20,185 nucleotides of DNA from a virus. The stretch spans positions 1 through 20,185 of the IMG/VR virus record IMGVR_UViG_3300033144_005065; one strand, given 5' to 3'. Under the pieces are notes generated by a model. The model ran no database searches and was not told the DNA's origin. It saw only the letters and a list, made by a program, of their open reading frames with translations. Both the position numbers and the translations under genes were made by a program. Below, one piece after another: positions 2,470-18,371 of this stretch. The first letter of the stretch is position 1. Each line of letters starts with the position of its first letter.

Positions 2470-2721
2470 TTATCCTCCTGACCACAGCAATACTTCGGCG
2501 GAACGCCGATCCCCCAATTTGTCTACACCCAATTTGCTTGTGCCAACCAGAAACGAGTCGTTCACATCTCGCTTGTAGATGTACACTGTATCTGTCGCCC
2601 CGACCTCCTCGTTGATCGCCAAGAATCGCAACACATAGTCTGCCGAAGTACCTATGTCTGACTCGAGCCGTTTGACCCTTGTATTGATCTCGTTTATGAA
2701 ACTCGCGAGTGGATTTGTCAT
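2470..2721 (-). CDS. Hypothetical small tail-module protein (83 aa)
   Basis: No family is recognised. The N-terminal 25 residues (ASFINEINTRVKRLESDI) look like a short coiled-coil helix, followed by a predicted beta-rich part (DTVYIYKRDVNDSFLVGT). The ATG overlaps the TGA stop of the hub gene (ATGA) and has GGAGG upstream, so it is translationally coupled. Its position between the tail hub and the fibre adaptor suggests a connecting or trimerisation role in the tail tip; this is inference. Confidence 0.65.
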   Translation of the reverse strand: MTNPLASFINEINTRVKRLESDIGTSADYVLRFLAINEEVGATDTVYIYKRDVNDSFLVGTSKLGVDKLGDRRSAEVLLWSGG

Positions 2722-4202
2722 CTTTCCTCCAAATATAGTTCGTTATAAATAAATATTTCTCCTAGTGTTTGCGTGCTGGTGATTACTTTCATGTTTTTGT
2801 TTATTGTTATTCCGGTTTCTGATATTGTCAATTTTACAATGTCTCCTGCAGTTATCGAGTCGCCGTGAATAATTATGCTTGCCACCTTTTTTGGTGTCGG
2901 ATGCAATAAGCTATTTGCTACGATCTCTGCGTATTGTGCTGCCTCTATCTTTTTGTCTCGATATACCGCAGTATACATCCCATATTTCGCTTGGGATGCG
3001 AGATCATTTGACATGATCGCAACCTGCACTGGCGAGTTTGTAACAAAGTCCAACACCGCACCACCATCCACCCCAACATCCACGCCGTCAGAAGTAGATC
3101 CCTTCAAGACGATCCAATAAGTATCTCCAGCTGTGAGCGTGACATCTCGCAGAAATCTGAACTCAGAATATCCACCATCGACGATGCTGTCAAACTTGAT
3201 GATTGCCACGCTGTTCGACAGGTTTTCACCATCTGGCGACCCCGTGCTGTCTTTTTGTATCGAAACCGTTAACAGCGATGCGCTATCGGGCACAACTTCC
3301 GTGTATACCTGCAGGCTTGAGAGATAGACTTCGGTGGGTACAAATGACTGATTCTTTGCAACGCTGTCGGTGACAGTCGTTGTTGTTGTTTGGGTATTGC
3401 CTGACTGATCTTCGTTTTGTTGGAACCCTCCCACCACTATCGCCCGGTTCACAATCTCGCCCTCATCAGTAATTTCGGGAGATCCGTCGAGATCAGTGTC
3501 CGTGATAGTAGCCACGACCGCTGCCGCAGTAGGATCATAGAAATGCAGCTTCTTGTCAATATCCCGGTACCATGCAAAGCCCACCGCGTCTGCGAGATCT
3601 TTTATCGCCGATGCCAACGACTTCCAGACATACGTCACGTCATCGAAAGTGTATATCGTGTTATCAATATATGTATCGCTAATATCAACATCTGCGAGAG
3701 TCCTATACGTCTTTCCAGTGGTGTAATCGACTGTGTCAAGAATCGCCTTCACGAGTGCGCTTATTTCGATGTCATGAAATCTGCCGGAGAAAAAGATGGA
3801 GTTGAGTCGAATCCCGCCGTCCTCTCCGGATACGCTCATGATAGGCTTGATCTGCCCATCGTCGAGGGTTTTCGATACTTCTGTCACAAATCCATCGAGT
3901 TTTTTTGTTGTGAGACCCATGCCCGTGTGGATCTCGATAGCACACCCCTTCTCAATGTAGGAGTATTCATCAGCATCGTTGAGAAGCGTAAATTCAAATG
4001 TGTCTGTGGCATCAGATAGTTCTATACAGGTCTCAAGTGCCTGCACATTCTCGGTTATGGTGTGGGGGTTTCCTGATAGGTCAGTCACGATGATCGAACA
4101 GGAAGGGAGTAATACCGCAGACATAGCTGACCAGTAGCCTTCTGTCCAGTAATCCGCCGGCCAATAGGCAGTCTGGAAATACCCGGCAGACGTCAAACTC
4201 AT
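2718..4202 (-). CDS. Tail tip / baseplate hub protein (tail lysin or late-control gene D type)
   Basis: The 494-residue protein begins with a Trp-rich repeat YWPADYWTEGYW, a type of N-terminal motif seen in several phage tail proteins. Residues 30-130 (SIIVTDLSGNPHTITENVQ..., FEFTLLNDADEYSYIEKGCAIEI, KLDGFVTEVSK) match the two-domain start of hub proteins of the T4 gp27 / phage P2 gpD fold, and ALVKAILDTVDY... with LADAVGFAWYRDIDKKLHFYDP continues that pattern. The segment of about residues 265-395 (FVPTEVYLSSLQVYTE... SEFRFLRDVTLTAGDTYWIVLKG) looks like an inserted beta-sandwich resembling carbohydrate-binding modules. The last 80 residues return to the hub fold (KVASIIIHGDSITAGDIVKLT). It follows the radical SAM gene in the same operon. 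Hub function is well supported by order and fold pattern; sugar binding is a guess. Confidence 0.75.
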   Translation of the reverse strand: MSLTSAGYFQTAYWPADYWTEGYWSAMSAVLLPSCSIIVTDLSGNPHTITENVQALETCIELSDATDTFEFTLLNDADEYSYIEKGCAIEIHTGMGLTTKKLDGFVTEVSKTLDDGQIKPIMSVSGEDGGIRLNSIFFSGRFHDIEISALVKAILDTVDYTTGKTYRTLADVDISDTYIDNTIYTFDDVTYVWKSLASAIKDLADAVGFAWYRDIDKKLHFYDPTAAAVVATITDTDLDGSPEITDEGEIVNRAIVVGGFQQNEDQSGNTQTTTTTVTDSVAKNQSFVPTEVYLSSLQVYTEVVPDSASLLTVSIQKDSTGSPDGENLSNSVAIIKFDSIVDGGYSEFRFLRDVTLTAGDTYWIVLKGSTSDGVDVGVDGGAVLDFVTNSPVQVAIMSNDLASQAKYGMYTAVYRDKKIEAAQYAEIVANSLLHPTPKKVASIIIHGDSITAGDIVKLTISETGITINKNMKVITSTQTLGEIFIYNELYLEER

Positions 4203-4247: not shown

Positions 4248-5333
4248 TCATTTCTCCACCGACATGTATGGCGGCACAAGTTGTTTATAATCCTCGATGG
4301 TAAGCCCACATCGATTTAGGATTGATTTGTACATATCAGCACCGCCGCCACAGTAAGGATCATAATCAAGTTTGTTCGAGTACGCGTTAGAGAAACATGT
4401 CCCCATGCAAATATATTTAAATTCGCATGTTTGGCACCGGGTCTGATATTCCACGCTGCGTTTAAAAAAATCGATGCGATTCTCATGATATAATAAATCA
4501 ATTATATGATCATTATTTATGTTTCCGAGCTTAAAAAATGGTTCGTTGGCATGGTGCGCACACGTCACGACTGTACCATTCCACTCGATATCGAGTGATG
4601 ACCCCATACACGTATGACAACATTGAGTGATATCCTCCCATCTCTTATTGTTGATGCGATCTATTACGTCTTCGAGTTTATGCCACCTGAATGGCATGGC
4701 AGTATCCATCCACATTTCAGCCATTTTTTGCATCGTTCGGTGGAAGTTTTGAGGGGTTACATGGGGTGTCCCTGGGGTGAACCGCATTGGGAGGGCTAAT
4801 GACGCGTACAGCTTGAAATTGTCTTCAACATACGAACTATAGTGATTAGATATTATAGACGATACAATATTTAATAACCCATAATCTTTGGCCATAGCAA
4901 TCCCCTCCAGCGTTTGAGAAAAAGAATTCGACCGAGTTGTATTATGGCAGTCAGGAACCCCGTCAAAAGTAATGCCCACTGTATATCCATTCTCTTTGAA
5001 AAAGTTACAAAAATCATCCGTCAAAAGCGTTCCGTTGCTTTGGACGAAACATGATTTGTTAATCCCATCAAATATTTCCTCGAAACGTTCGTAATATTCC
5101 ACTCCCGGGAGTAACGACTCCCCGCCGATGAAATCAATGTGTATCTCGTCGATGTGACAAAAATCCAGCCCTTCTCGAATCGAATGAAATGTTTCATCAG
5201 TGGTCACCCGTGGAACGCCTCTTGGCCGCCAGCCATCTTCATAGCAATACGAACACCGAAGATTGCAATCCGGTGTCGGATTTATTATGAGATTAGACAA
5301 GTGATCTAATTTTTCGTAACATTTCTTGGTCAT
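4248..5333 (-). CDS. Radical SAM/SPASM peptide-modifying enzyme within the tail operon
   Basis: The 361-residue protein has the radical SAM signature CNLRCSYC (C23, C27, C30) that binds the catalytic 4Fe-4S cluster, followed by the SAM-binding GGES motif at 70-73, SNGTLLTDDF at about 99-108 and ITFDGVPDCH at 121-130. The C-terminal SPASM domain is complete: C242, then G253 and C258 (CX10GX4C), then CX2CX5CX3C at C300, C303, C309, C313, and later Cys at 328 and 342. Those residues would ligate two auxiliary Fe-S clusters. Known members (anaerobic sulfatase-maturating enzymes and sactipeptide or other RiPP maturases) use an S-adenosylmethionine-derived radical to modify residues in a protein or peptide. 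The ATG lies inside the 3' end of the tape measure gene (41-base overlap), so expression is coupled to it. The position is where a distal tail protein gene is normally found. The likeliest substrate is a tail protein; see the finding on the tape measure Cys motifs. An enzyme of this class is certain by motif; the substrate is inference. Confidence 0.92.
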   Translation of the reverse strand: MTKKCYEKLDHLSNLIINPTPDCNLRCSYCYEDGWRPRGVPRVTTDETFHSIREGLDFCHIDEIHIDFIGGESLLPGVEYYERFEEIFDGINKSCFVQSNGTLLTDDFCNFFKENGYTVGITFDGVPDCHNTTRSNSFSQTLEGIAMAKDYGLLNIVSSIISNHYSSYVEDNFKLYASLALPMRFTPGTPHVTPQNFHRTMQKMAEMWMDTAMPFRWHKLEDVIDRINNKRWEDITQCCHTCMGSSLDIEWNGTVVTCAHHANEPFFKLGNINNDHIIDLLYHENRIDFFKRSVEYQTRCQTCEFKYICMGTCFSNAYSNKLDYDPYCGGGADMYKSILNRCGLTIEDYKQLVPPYMSVEK

Positions 5334-8010
5334 GTTTATTCAGCATCCTCTCGAAGTCGTTTACTCCCGTGACTTTATCGATATTATAATTTATCGTTAT
5401 ATTCACATCACTTTTCCGCCCTTCTACGACAGGGGTTCCGTGCACGGGTATTATATACTCGCCAGCATGGACATTCAAACCGGTATCCTGTTGAACAAAC
5501 CCACCAGTTGCACCGCCACCCCTATGATCACACCCTTTGCTACAAGAGCTCCCTTTGTCGCATGATGAGCCGCCGCCGCTGCCGCCGCTGCCGCTGTCGT
5601 AAGTGCCCTTAATCACAAGATCGGGTCCATCCGTTGACAGCGTCCATCCAGCGCCCCCAGTCGGAGTTCCTGAACCCGTGGACGTGGAGTCCGGTCCTCC
5701 TCTATGATCACATCCTTTGCTACAAGAGCTCCCGCTTGAACTGCTACCACCGCCACCACTTATGGTAGGGGGTGTCTCAATAGGCGTTTCTGGAATTATT
5801 AGTGGTTCGGCACCACATATTCCCATCCACTTGGCGAACCAATCCGGGATATATGCGCAGAAGTCGATGCCTTCGAATGGATTCGGGATTGTCGGCCACG
5901 AAAACTCGATCGACTTCATTTCTATGAACCATGTTTTGATGCTTGCGAACACCGTGAACAGTTTGTCAAGGCACATCTCCTTTAGTTTCGCAGTCGCCTT
6001 AATAATCGGATCCCACAACCCAAACCCATTCGACGATATCCAATTAGCTATCGCTTTAACCGCCCCCAAAACACTATTGAATCCACCAATCAACAAAGCA
6101 ATAGCGCCATCGACGATTGTTGTGAATGCTTTTTCCAGATCTTCACCCCATTTCCCGATGAACCCATCTATCAATCCAAACACTGTATCGACATACGTCT
6201 TCAATGCATCCCATGCTCCCTCCCAATCGCCCCGGATAAGTGCCATGACCAAACTGATGACGGTCCTGATAGAAGCCATTGCCAGACCGATGTATAGCTT
6301 AATAGCGTCCCAAATAAATGACACAGTCTTTAGTATAGCCTCGCCGTGAGCATCCCAGAACGCAGTGACCGCATCTAAGAAATCGCCTATTATCTTGCCG
6401 ATTGCATCAGTGACCATGAGCGTGGTTGTCTTGATCCCGAGCCAGTCATTGTCCCATGCAACAGCAAGCACTGCCAACGCGGCGATTATTGCAAGGATCG
6501 GTGATGTGATCAATGCAACAGCAGCGGCTATGGCGATTGCGAATTTCGTGATTGTCGGATGCTGTGCAAACCAGTCTACCACGTCTGCGATCACGTCTGC
6601 AAGCCAGTTCAGAACGTCTGCAACCACGTTTACGATTGATGTCAACGATGCGAATGCGTCTTCGCTATTCCCCATATCGGATATAAGTCCTCCGAATACC
6701 TTTCCAAGTGATTCAGCGATGCGCTTTACAGATTTGAACGCTGGCTGCAGTTTTTTAGCGAAATGTTTCACAAGGTCTTTGACACGCGGAATAATATCTT
6801 TCAGGAACTTACGCAACTTGAGGAAGGACGGCATGAGTTTTTTCTTAAGTTCTCCGCCAAGTTTCATGACAACGGGGATCATCTTTGTGATCCATTCTGC
6901 GAATGATTTGATGTAGGGCGCCAGTGCCTTCCCGAGCGTGATGGACACTCCTTCGAGTGCCGACTTAAGCAACGCGATCGAGCCAGATATAGTGTCGAGT
7001 TGCTGCGTTGCCATCGTTTCAGCAGTGTCGCCCGCTTCGCCCAATGCGGCGTCAAGTTCCCTGATTCCACCGGTGTTCCCAACAAGAGCGGTTATGGCTG
7101 GAGCCCCACGTAATCCGAATAACTCGAAGGTCTTCGTGGTGTCCAATCCTGCTTCGGTGAGCGTATCGAGGATGTCTGCGAAAGAATGTGTTTCTGGATT
7201 TACATCTTCAAGTGTTAGCCCCATTTCGGACAGGACTTCTTTCATTTTTGAGGTCGGACTCAACAGTTTCGCGAATGCCCCCCGAAGAGCGGCTCCTGCG
7301 TCCTCGCCTTTGAATCCTGCATTGTACAACTGCCCAAGAATCGCATTGACTTCTTCTATTTCGAGCCCCATCGAGTTCGCTACAGGTCCAACATACTTAA
7401 GAGAATATTCAAGTTTCTCAATCGTTGCTTTGCTGGATCCGATTGTCTTTGCGAACACGTCAGCGATCCTACCACTGCTCTCCATACCAAGCCCGAACTG
7501 TCCGAGCGTAGAAGTTACGACCTCCGTCGTCTTTGTTAAGTCGTTCTGTGTTGCCGCCGCAAGATCCATGATCGGCTTAAGTTCCGCCTTCGTCATGTTC
7601 GCGACATCATACCCCGCAGATGCCAGATCGTAGAATGCGCTTGCCGCTTGGGATGCGGTGAATACCGTAGTCTCTCCAAGTTCCCGGCTCACTGCCTCGA
7701 TATGCTTCTTCGTCGCCTCGAAGACCCCACCTGTTGCGCCCGTGACTGATGCGGCGTTCGCTATTGCCTTCTCAAAGTCTGTGAATGTGGAGATAGCATT
7801 CTTTGCCGCAAGCCCCACAGCAGCGATCCCGGCCACTCCTGCAAGCAGCGTGAACTTCTTCGCAAGTCCGGCGATGCTTTTGCCAAGAGAAGATACTTTA
7901 CCAGTAATAGTATTGGCAGATTTGTCAAACTGCCTGCTAACCTTCTTGAGTCCGGCCGTAGCTTTGTCCGAAAATTCAACGACTACTTCGAGACGGGCTG
8001 CTTCAGTCGT
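5293..8010 (-). CDS. Tail tape measure protein, with apparent ACG start
   Basis: The protein determines tail length and is threaded through the tail tube. The N-terminal part (SDKATAGLKK..., then the TP901-type core with ASAFYDLASAGYD and GLRGAPAITAL), a long helical region, hydrophobic segments (FAIAIAAAVALITSPILAI) and a C-terminal HAGEYIIPVHG motif are typical of tape measure proteins. The first canonical start is GTG at 7836 (847 residues), but the same frame is open upstream to 8016 and encodes a convincing N-terminus (TEAARLEVVVEFSDK). An ACG codon at 8010-8008 lies ten bases after a perfect AAGGAGG (8027-8021), so the ancestral ATG is probably here. No ATG, GTG or TTG exists between 8016 and 7836. 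The Gly/Ser-rich C-terminal region holds two copies of CSKGCDHRGG (residues 705-714 and 765-774 in GTG numbering) plus a CDKG, absent from ordinary tape measure proteins. Function is firm; the start is uncertain. Confidence 0.9.
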   Translation of the reverse strand, partial: TTEAARLEVVVEFSDKATAGLKKVSRQFDKSANTITGKVSSLGKSIAGLAKKFTLLAGVAGIAAVGLAAKNAISTFTDFEKAIANAASVTGATGGVFEATKKHIEAVSRELGETTVFTASQAASAFYDLASAGYDVANMTKAELKPIMDLAAATQNDLTKTTEVVTSTLGQFGLGMESSGRIADVFAKTIGSSKATIEKLEYSLKYVGPVANSMGLEIEEVNAILGQLYNAGFKGEDAGAALRGAFAKLLSPTSKMKEVLSEMGLTLEDVNPETHSFADILDTLTEAGLDTTKTFELFGLRGAPAITALVGNTGGIRELDAALGEAGDTAETMATQQLDTISGSIALLKSALEGVSITLGKALAPYIKSFAEWITKMIPVVMKLGGELKKKLMPSFLKLRKFLKDIIPRVKDLVKHFAKKLQPAFKSVKRIAESLGKVFGGLISDMGNSEDAFASLTSIVNVVADVLNWLADVIADVVDWFAQHPTITKFAIAIAAAVALITSPILAIIAALAVLAVAWDNDWLGIKTTTLMVTDAIGKIIGDFLDAVTAFWDAHGEAILKTVSFIWDAIKLYIGLAMASIRTVISLVMALIRGDWEGAWDALKTYVDTVFGLIDGFIGKWGEDLEKAFTTIVDGAIALLIGGFNSVLGAVKAIANWISSNGFGLWDPIIKATAKLKEMCLDKLFTVFASIKTWFIEMKSIEFSWPTIPNPFEGIDFCAYIPDWFAKWMGICGAEPLIIPETPIETPPTISGGGGSSSSGSSCSKGCDHRGGPDSTSTGSGTPTGGAGWTLSTDGPDLVIKGTYDSGSGGSGGGSSCDKGSSCSKGCDHRGGGATGGFVQQDTGLNVHAGEYIIPVHGTPVVEGRKSDVNITINYNIDKVTGVNDFERMLNKHDQEMLRKIRSLV
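5522..5733 (-). repeat. Duplicated Cys-motif DNA inside the tape measure gene
   Basis: Two 32-base copies at 5522-5553 and 5702-5733 differ at a single silent position (5533/5713). They are 180 bases apart, so the duplication keeps the frame. They encode the GSSCSKGCDHRG motifs. Near identity even at wobble positions indicates a recent duplication or selection on the DNA; the Gly/Ser-rich sequence between them is not repeated. Confidence 0.85.
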
Positions 8011-10506: not shown

Positions 10507-11283
10507 ATGGCGAACAAAATAAAGACGCTTGAATATGCAACAGAACGATCGATAAGAGCAATCCTGCGCGATGCGATGCGAGACATAACCTCCATCGATG
10601 ATTATGATTATGCTATCTCGCGAATCGATCGCACGGGATATGCCAGGATGCATGACGCAATCGCGAAAGTGTATCTCGAAGGTTACAATGCCGGAGGCGC
10701 ATTGATACGGAAGCATTTCAGAACAGCCGCTATGATCCAGGTCACCGACTCATTCGGAGATGTCCACGACATCGAAGATCCTTTGATCGCAAAGCACACC
10801 ACACGGCTGCTTAACGGAGTTAGTGGGATGGCCGCTGCGCAACGAGATGAGATCGAGGCAGCCCTCAGCAGGTACTACGAAAAGGGGTATACATCAGATC
10901 GGATCGCCAGAGCACTCGAAACGTTCTTCGACGATGATCCCACGTCTGCTCGCCGCTTCGCCCGCACCGCCACAAACGATATTTACAACCGGGCGCACCT
11001 GGATCGATATCAGGATTCCGGAGTCGTCGATGGCGTTGAGTTTTCGGCACATATCGATGATCGAACCAGCCCGCCATGTAGGATGCTTGATGGCACGATT
11101 TGGGCAGTTGGCAGCGACGATATTAAGATGCCTCCCCGAAATTTCAATTGTAGATCAAGAGTAATCCCCTACTTCGGAGGTATTCCAGGCGAGCGAGACT
11201 TTACGAAGGATTTCTCACCCGAGTTCATCGATGATGCTGAGCAGATGGAAGATACGTTCCGATCTAAGTACTGGAGTCTGTAG
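10507..11283 (+). CDS. Phage Mu gpF / SPP1 gp7-like minor head protein
   Basis: The C-terminal domain carries the hallmarks of the Mu gpF family: ARTATNDIYNRAHLDRY (152-168), DDRTSPPCRMLDGTIW (184-199) and PPRNFNCRSRVIPYF (209-223), with the conserved Cys pair C191 and C215. The N-terminal 150 residues are helical. In SPP1 the homologue gp7 binds the portal and affects DNA release. In other elements MuF domains are joined to effector toxins and the protein is delivered with the virion. Here it is short and has no extra C-terminal domain. It is unusual in being on the strand opposite to the other virion genes and not next to a portal gene. The family call is firm; a virion role is likely. Confidence 0.85.
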   Translation: MANKIKTLEYATERSIRAILRDAMRDITSIDDYDYAISRIDRTGYARMHDAIAKVYLEGYNAGGALIRKHFRTAAMIQVTDSFGDVHDIEDPLIAKHTTRLLNGVSGMAAAQRDEIEAALSRYYEKGYTSDRIARALETFFDDDPTSARRFARTATNDIYNRAHLDRYQDSGVVDGVEFSAHIDDRTSPPCRMLDGTIWAVGSDDIKMPPRNFNCRSRVIPYFGGIPGERDFTKDFSPEFIDDAEQMEDTFRSKYWSL

Positions 11284-17175: not shown

Positions 17176-17454
17176 TCATCGCTCATCGACGTGGATCATG
17201 ATCGTTCGTTCGTCTGTTCGCCCGAGACTTGTTGTGATCTCACAAGCCACCGTATAGGACTCTCCAACAGTTCCGCCAGAGAGCCATGTTGTTACTATCC
17301 CGTCGCTTTCGCTGTCGCTGTCTTTCGTAAGACCCGTTTCGACTGTCACGGTATGCGAACTGATCGTCTCGCCGGATTGCAACCAGTATGTGCCCCAGTC
17401 TAAAGCGTAATCGAGTACGCTGTCCGGGTCTTTAGCGAAAGATGCCTCAACCAT
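17176..17454 (-). CDS. Ig-like virion decoration/structural protein (92 aa)
   Basis: The sequence pattern ASFAKDPDSVLDYALDWGTY, then TISSHTVTVETGLTKDSDSE, then TTWLSGGTVGESYTVACEIT and a final GRTDERTIMIHV is the signature of a common small beta-sandwich phage protein often encoded among head genes (LDY..DW..WL..GDTI ... TVWLSGGT...Y.V...ITT..GR...R). I start at ATG 17454, which overlaps the TAA of the HNH gene (TAATG); an in-frame ATG at 17463 lies inside that gene. It is probably exposed on the virion. The identification is by pattern. Confidence 0.75.
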   Translation of the reverse strand: MVEASFAKDPDSVLDYALDWGTYWLQSGETISSHTVTVETGLTKDSDSESDGIVTTWLSGGTVGESYTVACEITTSLGRTDERTIMIHVDER

Positions 17455-18371
17455 TATAAGCACCCCACGATCATCATCCGAAGCTCTTCAACGAAGAGAT
17501 GTTCAGCTCCATAAATCGACTCATGACATCGCTTACACATCGAAATGCCATTGCCCACATCGAAAGCAAGATCGGGATATTTCTGCTTCGGCATGATATG
17601 GTGTGCATGAATCACACATTCAGCATCTCCACACACCTTACAAGTATATCCATCGCGGGCATACACGGCATATCTCCAGTCATCGATGGCGTATGTGTTG
17701 CAGATGCATGGATATATCCAATCCCGGATCGCCGAGCCGCTTATAAACGATCCGACAAGAGCATTCCATCGTTGATGTCTGAGGTGTCGTGATGTGGCTT
17801 TGCTTAGGTTTTGTTTATGTTCATCTGAGAACTTCATCCCCATACGTGCTTTGCTTATCTTCTGTCGTGTCTCGTCAGATAGGGATTTCCCATAATTTGG
17901 AGCGTCCGCCCCACGCTTGCCATATTGTGGGTGCTTCTCTCCTTTGAATGCCTCGCTTATCTTCTTCTTTGCCTCTTCGGTATGGTGGTTTCCGACATGC
18001 GATTCGCTGAACTTGCGTCGGGTTTCTTCGGTGTGTACTCTGTTACGATTTTGATGCCCATTGATGTACTTGCGCCCTGGATTAGCAAGTTCGCCACAAC
18101 CACATTCACATGGCTGCGGTTCAGGAGGGGGGGCACGTCGTTTTGCTTTAGCATCCCTCATTTTCTGCTTTGTTTCCGCAGTATGTTTACGTCCGCGCAT
18201 AGGCGAAGGCGAACCCTTTTTTGACTCGCTGATCAGCTGCTTAGCCTCTTCGGTGTGCTTGCGCCCCTTCATCCAAGGGGTTCTTCCGCGATTCTCATGC
18301 CCTTTAACAAACCGGCGGTTAGATGCTACCAATTCTCCGCAGCCACATTCACACAGTTTATTTTTAGACAT
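17454..18371 (-). CDS. Free-standing HNH homing endonuclease with NUMOD3 repeats
   Basis: The C-terminal part has the HNH nuclease motif RYAVYARDGYTCKVCGD, then HAHHI (255-259), N274, and CKRCH (279-283); C244, C247, C279 and C282 would bind structural zinc. The middle consists of several NUMOD3-like DNA-binding repeats (GRKHTEEAKQLISESKKG and variants at about 36-53, 60-75, 112-126, 130-144, 162-178). A CECGCGEL motif at residues 7-14 recurs at 88-95, pointing to an internal duplication. Such enzymes cut an intron- or gene-less allele and spread their own gene. It is inserted between virion genes and has its own TATA box, so it is likely a mobile passenger. Confidence 0.92.
   Translation of the reverse strand: MSKNKLCECGCGELVASNRRFVKGHENRGRTPWMKGRKHTEEAKQLISESKKGSPSPMRGRKHTAETKQKMRDAKAKRRAPPPEPQPCECGCGELANPGRKYINGHQNRNRVHTEETRRKFSESHVGNHHTEEAKKKISEAFKGEKHPQYGKRGADAPNYGKSLSDETRQKISKARMGMKFSDEHKQNLSKATSRHLRHQRWNALVGSFISGSAIRDWIYPCICNTYAIDDWRYAVYARDGYTCKVCGDAECVIHAHHIMPKQKYPDLAFDVGNGISMCKRCHESIYGAEHLFVEELRMMIVGCL

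Follow-up and report, generated by a model that had tools for sequence, protein, structure and literature searches.

We analyzed a 20,185-base virus record from IMG/VR (IMGVR_UViG_3300033144_005065; this whole stretch of DNA is called the window below), in which a radical S-adenosylmethionine (SAM)/SPASM enzyme is encoded in the tail gene cluster, immediately after the gene for a tape measure protein (TMP). The enzyme, here named P0001 (361 residues; 4248–5333, minus strand), has its ATG within the 3′ end of the TMP gene, with an overlap of 41 nucleotides. Its open reading frame (ORF), Pfam profiles, sequence motifs, and AlphaFold2 (AF2) fold agree on the assignment. Both Radical_SAM (1.1e-15) and SPASM (4e-8) scored above their gathering thresholds, the radical SAM motif CNLRCSYC occupies residues 23–30 (5244–5267, minus strand), and a GGES motif lies at residue 70. 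The SPASM cysteine ligands, C242 to C328 (4350–4610, minus strand), fill seven of seven canonical positions in the order C242-X10-G253-X4-C258, C300-X2-C303-X5-C309-X3-C313, and C328, so that the pattern of the radical SAM/SPASM superfamily (CX3CX2C; CX9-15GX4C...CX2CX5CX3C...C) is present throughout. The AF2 model, for which 62 viral sequences were aligned, reached a predicted local distance difference test score (pLDDT) of 89.8 and a predicted template modelling score (pTM) of 0.89, and its closest solved folds were anSMEcpe, ChlB, CteB, TigE, and SuiB, all of which modify peptides or proteins. P0001 is a complete radical SAM/SPASM enzyme by both family and fold. A direct search of viral contigs returned no close relatives of P0001.

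The overlapping gene (5293–8010, minus strand) encodes a TMP of the TIGR01760/PhageMin_Tail family, and its score of 184.6 bits against a curated cut-off of 28.8 places it among TP901-type TMPs. Profile matches and comparison with a relative (contig L003) put the probable start at an ACG codon (8010–8008), upstream of the first listed start, a GTG at 7836; L003 has ATG at this point, and a GGAGG-like site lies upstream. The ACG may be a rare start codon, but it may also stem from a mutation or from a sequencing error. Toward its 3′ end the gene encodes a Gly/Ser-rich linker (5515–5724, minus strand), the proposed target of P0001, in which CSKG-CDHR (5724–5701), CDKG (5562–5551), and a second CSKG-CDHR (5544–5521) together form five CXXX tetrads, only two pairs of them in tandem. 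The two copies of the decamer CSKGCDHRGG (5724–5695 and 5544–5515) differ at three third-codon positions over their common 38 nucleotides, and all three differences are synonymous. On the C-terminal side of the linker follows the conserved TMP C-terminus of about 70 residues (5296–5505, minus strand), and on its N-terminal side lies a cysteine pair, FC...ICG (5815–5859, minus strand; codons 5859–5857 and 5817–5815), which is kept in the relatives L004 and L007. The initial annotation of this locus had described the complete radical SAM core and SPASM domain, the enzyme start inside the TMP gene, and the two near-identical decamers and a CDKG ahead of a conserved C-terminus, and all of these hold. 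The interval it gave, 4248–5750, covers the enzyme and the linker but not the whole system, as the TMP gene extends to about 8010.

We then compared the locus with relatives L003–L008, which were obtained by a TMP search. The TMP of L004 is 54% identical to that of the window over 579 residues and 40% over the final 70, and its gene overlaps by 4 nucleotides (ATGA) with a radical SAM/SPASM gene that lies next in line, in the position of the P0001 gene. The two enzymes are only about 21% identical, and the L004 enzyme keeps all seven SPASM cysteines; a profile built from the two sequences retrieved nothing beyond the L004 enzyme, which as sole query found no close relatives either. The gene after the L004 enzyme is a homologue (41% identity over 457 residues) of the next tail gene of the window (494 residues; 2718–4202, minus strand). 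The Methanosarcinales virus vir515 has a distant homologue of this tail gene straight after its TMP gene, with no enzyme between them. The L004 linker reads HDKS-HDKG-HSKS...HDQS...YDRA...CSMK...YDRG, its cysteines mostly replaced by His or Tyr, and the linker of L007, whose contig stops inside it, is similar in having mostly His- or Tyr-first tetrads. Units of the form [CHY][DS][KRHQM] number five in the window linker (0.18 in shuffles), seven in L004 (0.77), and six in L007 (0.58); the pattern was chosen after the L004 and L007 linkers had been seen, so the comparison with shuffles only describes the linkers.

The linker is missing from at least 15 further complete TMPs of this family (from L002, L008, L013, L018, and Methanosarcinia proviruses), which contain at most one cysteine in their last 220 residues and have no adjacent enzyme (about 1–1.5 kb downstream was read in the proviruses). 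L003, L005, and L006 stop before the linker and carry no information on the pairing, and L014 and L015, which match only the common HAGEYV motif of TMP C-termini, have no bearing on it. TMP searches of 238 genomes of the class Methanosarcinia and 393 of the phylum yielded only distant TMPs, with neither linker nor enzyme. Thus, the co-occurrence of enzyme and motif, proposed as a test in the initial annotation, was borne out within the available data at the level of the linker, which accompanies the enzyme in L004 and is absent together with it from at least 15 TMPs, but not at the level of the exact CSKGCDHRG sequence, which is not conserved in the mostly His/Tyr-first linkers of L004 and L007.

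We surveyed the neighborhoods of radical SAM/SPASM genes more broadly in the 80 best viral contigs with P0001 relatives from a profile scan. A neighboring gene was scored as repeat-type if its product had 8 or more Cys, or 5 or more His-x-Asp/Asn motifs, in 50 residues; these thresholds were set after this first set had been viewed. A repeat-type gene lay within 3 kb of the radical SAM gene at 61 of the 80 loci, and such genes made up 78 of 634 near genes, 10 of 422 genes farther away on the same contigs, and none of 251 control genes from 11 viral loci without such enzymes. With unchanged thresholds, a hold-out of 48 contigs new to the analysis, drawn from another scan in which the L004 enzyme set the ranking, showed a motif neighbor at 32 loci (37 of 424 near genes versus 2 of 242 far genes; Fisher p = 3.6e-6). 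Both sets include near-duplicate contigs, and the effective numbers are smaller. In the Cys-type arrays, 57% of cysteines are followed by another at +4 (CXXXC), and about three quarters carry T, E, N, D, S, or Q at +1, as in the CSKGCD of the window. In the His-type arrays, 95% of histidines have D or N at +2, and FxN and YxD also occur. The repeat type tracks the enzyme tree, switching only three times among its labelled rows. The TIGR04115 model, which describes a family of CXXX-repeat radical SAM maturases, matches 38 of the 62 aligned viral enzymes, the L106 enzyme reaching 341.7 bits against a cut-off of 350. In the surveyed contigs, radical SAM/SPASM enzymes of this kind usually adjoin viral proteins rich in CXXX or His-x-Asp/Asn repeats. 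When 37 of the repeat proteins were scanned against PHROGs, a few matched families of tail, tail-fibre, baseplate, or virion structural proteins, and the majority matched none of known function; a role as virion parts is thus backed by family matches for only a few of them.

Cultured phages provide further examples. In the Thermus phages Cumys and phiMa, a radical SAM gene directly follows the gene for a repeat protein in the baseplate/tail-collar region. This protein (Cumys_13, 343 residues; L121:5961-6992 and L122:3964-4992), annotated as hypothetical, consists of HxD repeats over about two thirds of its length. The Cumys paper describes the radical SAM module and suggests DNA modification, and the available part of its text makes no mention of the HxD array (PMC11437467). 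A DUF483-domain protein is encoded after the Cumys radical SAM gene (L121:8253-9191), and none was noticed in the window. The jumbo phages Asesino (Erwinia), STsAS (Salmonella), and CR5 (Cronobacter) carry small Cys-rich (CXXXC) ORFs upstream of a pair of radical SAM genes (L038:2408-2863 in Asesino; two ORFs each at L124:2148-2956 in STsAS and L126:2106-2917 in CR5). Several of these ORFs have no annotation (L124) or have the opposite-strand gene annotated in their place (L126), and a Cys-rich ORF of L126 matches phrog_6085, a family of unknown function. Cys-rich ORFs also lie near the radical SAM gene in Campylobacter phage F379 and in Phass-1.

Radical SAM/SPASM maturases are known to produce peptide natural products and to mature a few cellular proteins. 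From the observed linkage, co-occurrence, and repeat types, we infer, with a probability of roughly 60%, that P0001 is a peptide-modifying maturase whose substrate is the TMP of the overlapping gene, and that it cross-links linker cysteines near the tail tip. Under anaerobic conditions, the [4Fe-4S] cluster of P0001 would cleave SAM, the resulting 5′-deoxyadenosyl radical would abstract a hydrogen atom from the linker of the TMP, and formation of the cross-link would be assisted by the auxiliary SPASM clusters. The product in the window would likely be thioether links from the cysteines of the CXXX tetrads to neighboring residues, whereas in L004 aryl or imidazole carbon links would form on the His/Tyr-first tetrads. 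The linker so stiffened would sit between the TMP body and the conserved C-terminus, which is located at the tail tip in siphoviral tails. We can only guess at its role there: a stiff cross-linked segment might hold the TMP in place or set the moment at which it is released. The initial annotation had proposed that the enzyme installs a crosslink on the TMP or oxidises its residues; the first idea has gained comparative support, from the co-occurrence and from the surveys of viral proteins that may be self-modified in this way, and appears plausible on such sequence comparisons, but the oxidation route is not favored.

Known systems offer parallels to both repeat types. In ranthipeptides and quinohemoprotein amine dehydrogenase, Cys is joined to Asp, Glu, Thr, or Asn; in triceptides, Trp, Phe, Tyr, or His is joined to the beta carbon two residues on, with YhhB making Tyr-x-Arg and His-x-Arg links and YxdB making Tyr-x-Asp (PMC11002830). 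The HxD/HxN arrays and the HDK and YDR units of L004 and L007 fit the triceptide layout, and the CXXX arrays and the tetrads of the window suit thioethers. This aromatic-x-residue arrangement likens the His-type arrays and the L004/L007 linkers to the targets of the enzymes that form three-residue cyclophanes (YhhB, YxdB, HaaB, and OscB/GrrM), from which the viral cases differ in that P0001, the L004 enzyme, and Cumys_12 all fall under the NCBIfam cut-offs, the viral targets form long arrays within proteins and not short precursor peptides, and the window tetrads are Cys-first. PapB, CteB/SCIFF, and QhpD form Cys-Asp/Glu thioethers, the target of QhpD being a protein subunit. They share with P0001 the SPASM architecture, Cys donors, and acidic or Ser/Thr neighbors, and CteB is also a structural neighbor, but P0001 scores 62.7 bits against the PapB cut-off of 340 and, unlike the ranthipeptide maturases, has no extra N-terminal domain, its CX3CX2C beginning at residue 23. 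To our knowledge, the function of TIGR04115 is uncharacterised. Members of this family are radical SAM/SPASM enzymes, as is P0001, and adjoin CXXX-repeat proteins; the window motifs are CXXX tetrads, but they are few, below the survey density, and lie inside a TMP. The Cumys/phiMa module (PMC11437467) resembles the window in having a phage radical SAM gene in a baseplate/tail-fibre region with a repeat protein directly before it, but that repeat protein is not a TMP.

The closest solved fold to P0001 is anSMEcpe (PDB 4K36-4K39; TM-score 0.79), which is also its nearest PDB sequence (E 6e-16). Asp277 is the catalytic residue of anSME. It aligns with Ala259 of P0001, the TMP holds no sulfatase-type [CS]x[PA]xR site, and P0001 scores 119.8 bits against a cut-off of 349.45 for the anaerobic sulfatase maturase model TIGR03942; the anSME-type route offered in the initial annotation, here oxidation to formylglycine, is disfavored by the absent aspartate and the missing site.

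Several observations weigh against the TMP as a cross-linked substrate. Complete TMP–enzyme pairs are two only, in the window and L004. The window linker, at no more than 4 Cys per 50 residues, is below the survey threshold of 8, and 32 of the 251 control genes match that density. The TMP contains no CX3[DE] (freyrasin-type) site, a further difference from PapB targets. P0001 lies under every NCBIfam cut-off, with sulfatase maturases and dynobactin/darobactin-type peptide maturases among its top matches, and TIGR04115 is absent from its best 25. P0001 also forms a long branch in the enzyme tree, and its nearest rows mix enzymes with and without motif neighbors. Its placement next to the Cys side of the tree was set aside, since the approximately unbiased (AU) test does not reject a grouping with the His-type clade (p = 0.61); for the window, phylogeny thus offers no match between enzyme and motif.

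One alternative, which we regard as unlikely, is that the Cys, Asp, and His residues of the linker could form a metal site, for example for zinc, that folds the end of the TMP and needs no modification, the enzyme acting on some other target. The linker contains CX3CXH twice, which looks metal-binding, L004 and L007 carry His/Asp-rich equivalents, and the protein encoded at 688–2091 of the window has a second possible zinc-ribbon motif (CPKC...HVIGH). A metal site would not account, however, for an enzyme gene that is found at one and the same position in the two viruses whose linker is complete and is missing next to linker-free TMPs, or for the arrays that accompany these enzymes in most surveyed viral contigs. 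It is equally improbable in our estimate that the enzyme is a host-directed accessory gene, a maturase of host proteins or of small secreted peptides that came to lie in the tail operon by chance. The nature of the top NCBIfam matches and the DNA modification suggested for the Thermus phage enzyme (PMC11437467) speak for such a role, but the anSME catalytic aspartate is replaced, no cut-off is reached, and the common slot in two diverged viruses together with the survey association fits a viral substrate better.

Somewhat less probable still is coincidence, in which a mobile enzyme gene was inserted twice between the TMP and the next tail gene beside linkers of unconstrained low complexity. 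With two cases, enzymes so dissimilar, and Gly/Ser linkers that drift readily, chance has some appeal; against it, both enzymes retain every SPASM cysteine, the linker units far exceed shuffles, the decamer copies differ only synonymously, and the general association was repeated in a separate set.

If P0001 modifies the TMP, the window would be an example, with few repeats and these in a TMP, of a broader viral pairing between a radical SAM/SPASM enzyme and a repeat-bearing protein. By a slight balance of likelihood, many tailed viruses of bacteria and archaea may cross-link CXXX or His-x-Asp/Asn arrays of their own virions with such enzymes, giving rigid, resistant structures, and the window would apply this principle to a tail-tip TMP. 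We found no description of tail-modifying viral radical SAM enzymes in the openly licensed PubMed Central literature, in line with the initial annotation, which knew of no such system, nor, in the openly licensed literature, of viral proteins with CXXX or His-x-Asp/Asn repeats being paired with a radical SAM/SPASM enzyme. What would be new here is the TMP as a kind of target for repeat-directed radical SAM/SPASM maturation, the type of maturation itself being known. If this is true, viruses would be maturing their virions by a widespread route that has gone unreported and is linked to anaerobic chemistry. Several viral protein families that now lack a function would gain a candidate one, and a large natural set of enzyme–substrate pairs with readable motifs would be at hand. 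Cumys and the Erwinia, Salmonella, and Cronobacter jumbo phages would serve as cultured test systems, the HxD protein of Cumys being suited to cyclophane arrays.

The kin of the window TMP include a Methanosarcinales virus and a Methanosarcina metagenome-assembled genome, and TMPs of bacterial phages are equally close by identity; the former kin point to methanogenic archaea (Methanosarcinales) as the probable host. MCM was considered as an archaeal signature and set aside as not diagnostic, since its one match, in the L005 record, is paralleled by matches in bacterial controls. Elsewhere in the window, the minus-strand gene at 688–2091 encodes a baseplate/fibre-like protein with its zinc-ribbon-like CPKC...HVIGH near the C-terminal part, and that at 17454–18371 (minus strand) a probable homing endonuclease with group I intron endonuclease-type repeats and a Cys/His-rich end that is weakly IscB-like. 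By eye, the Mu-F-like head proteins of two relatives (L005:3787-6132 and L006:5810-7618, both minus strand) contain apparent intein-like insertions at a conserved NF-NC-RSR site, and the Mu-F-like head protein of the window (10507–11283, plus strand) has none.

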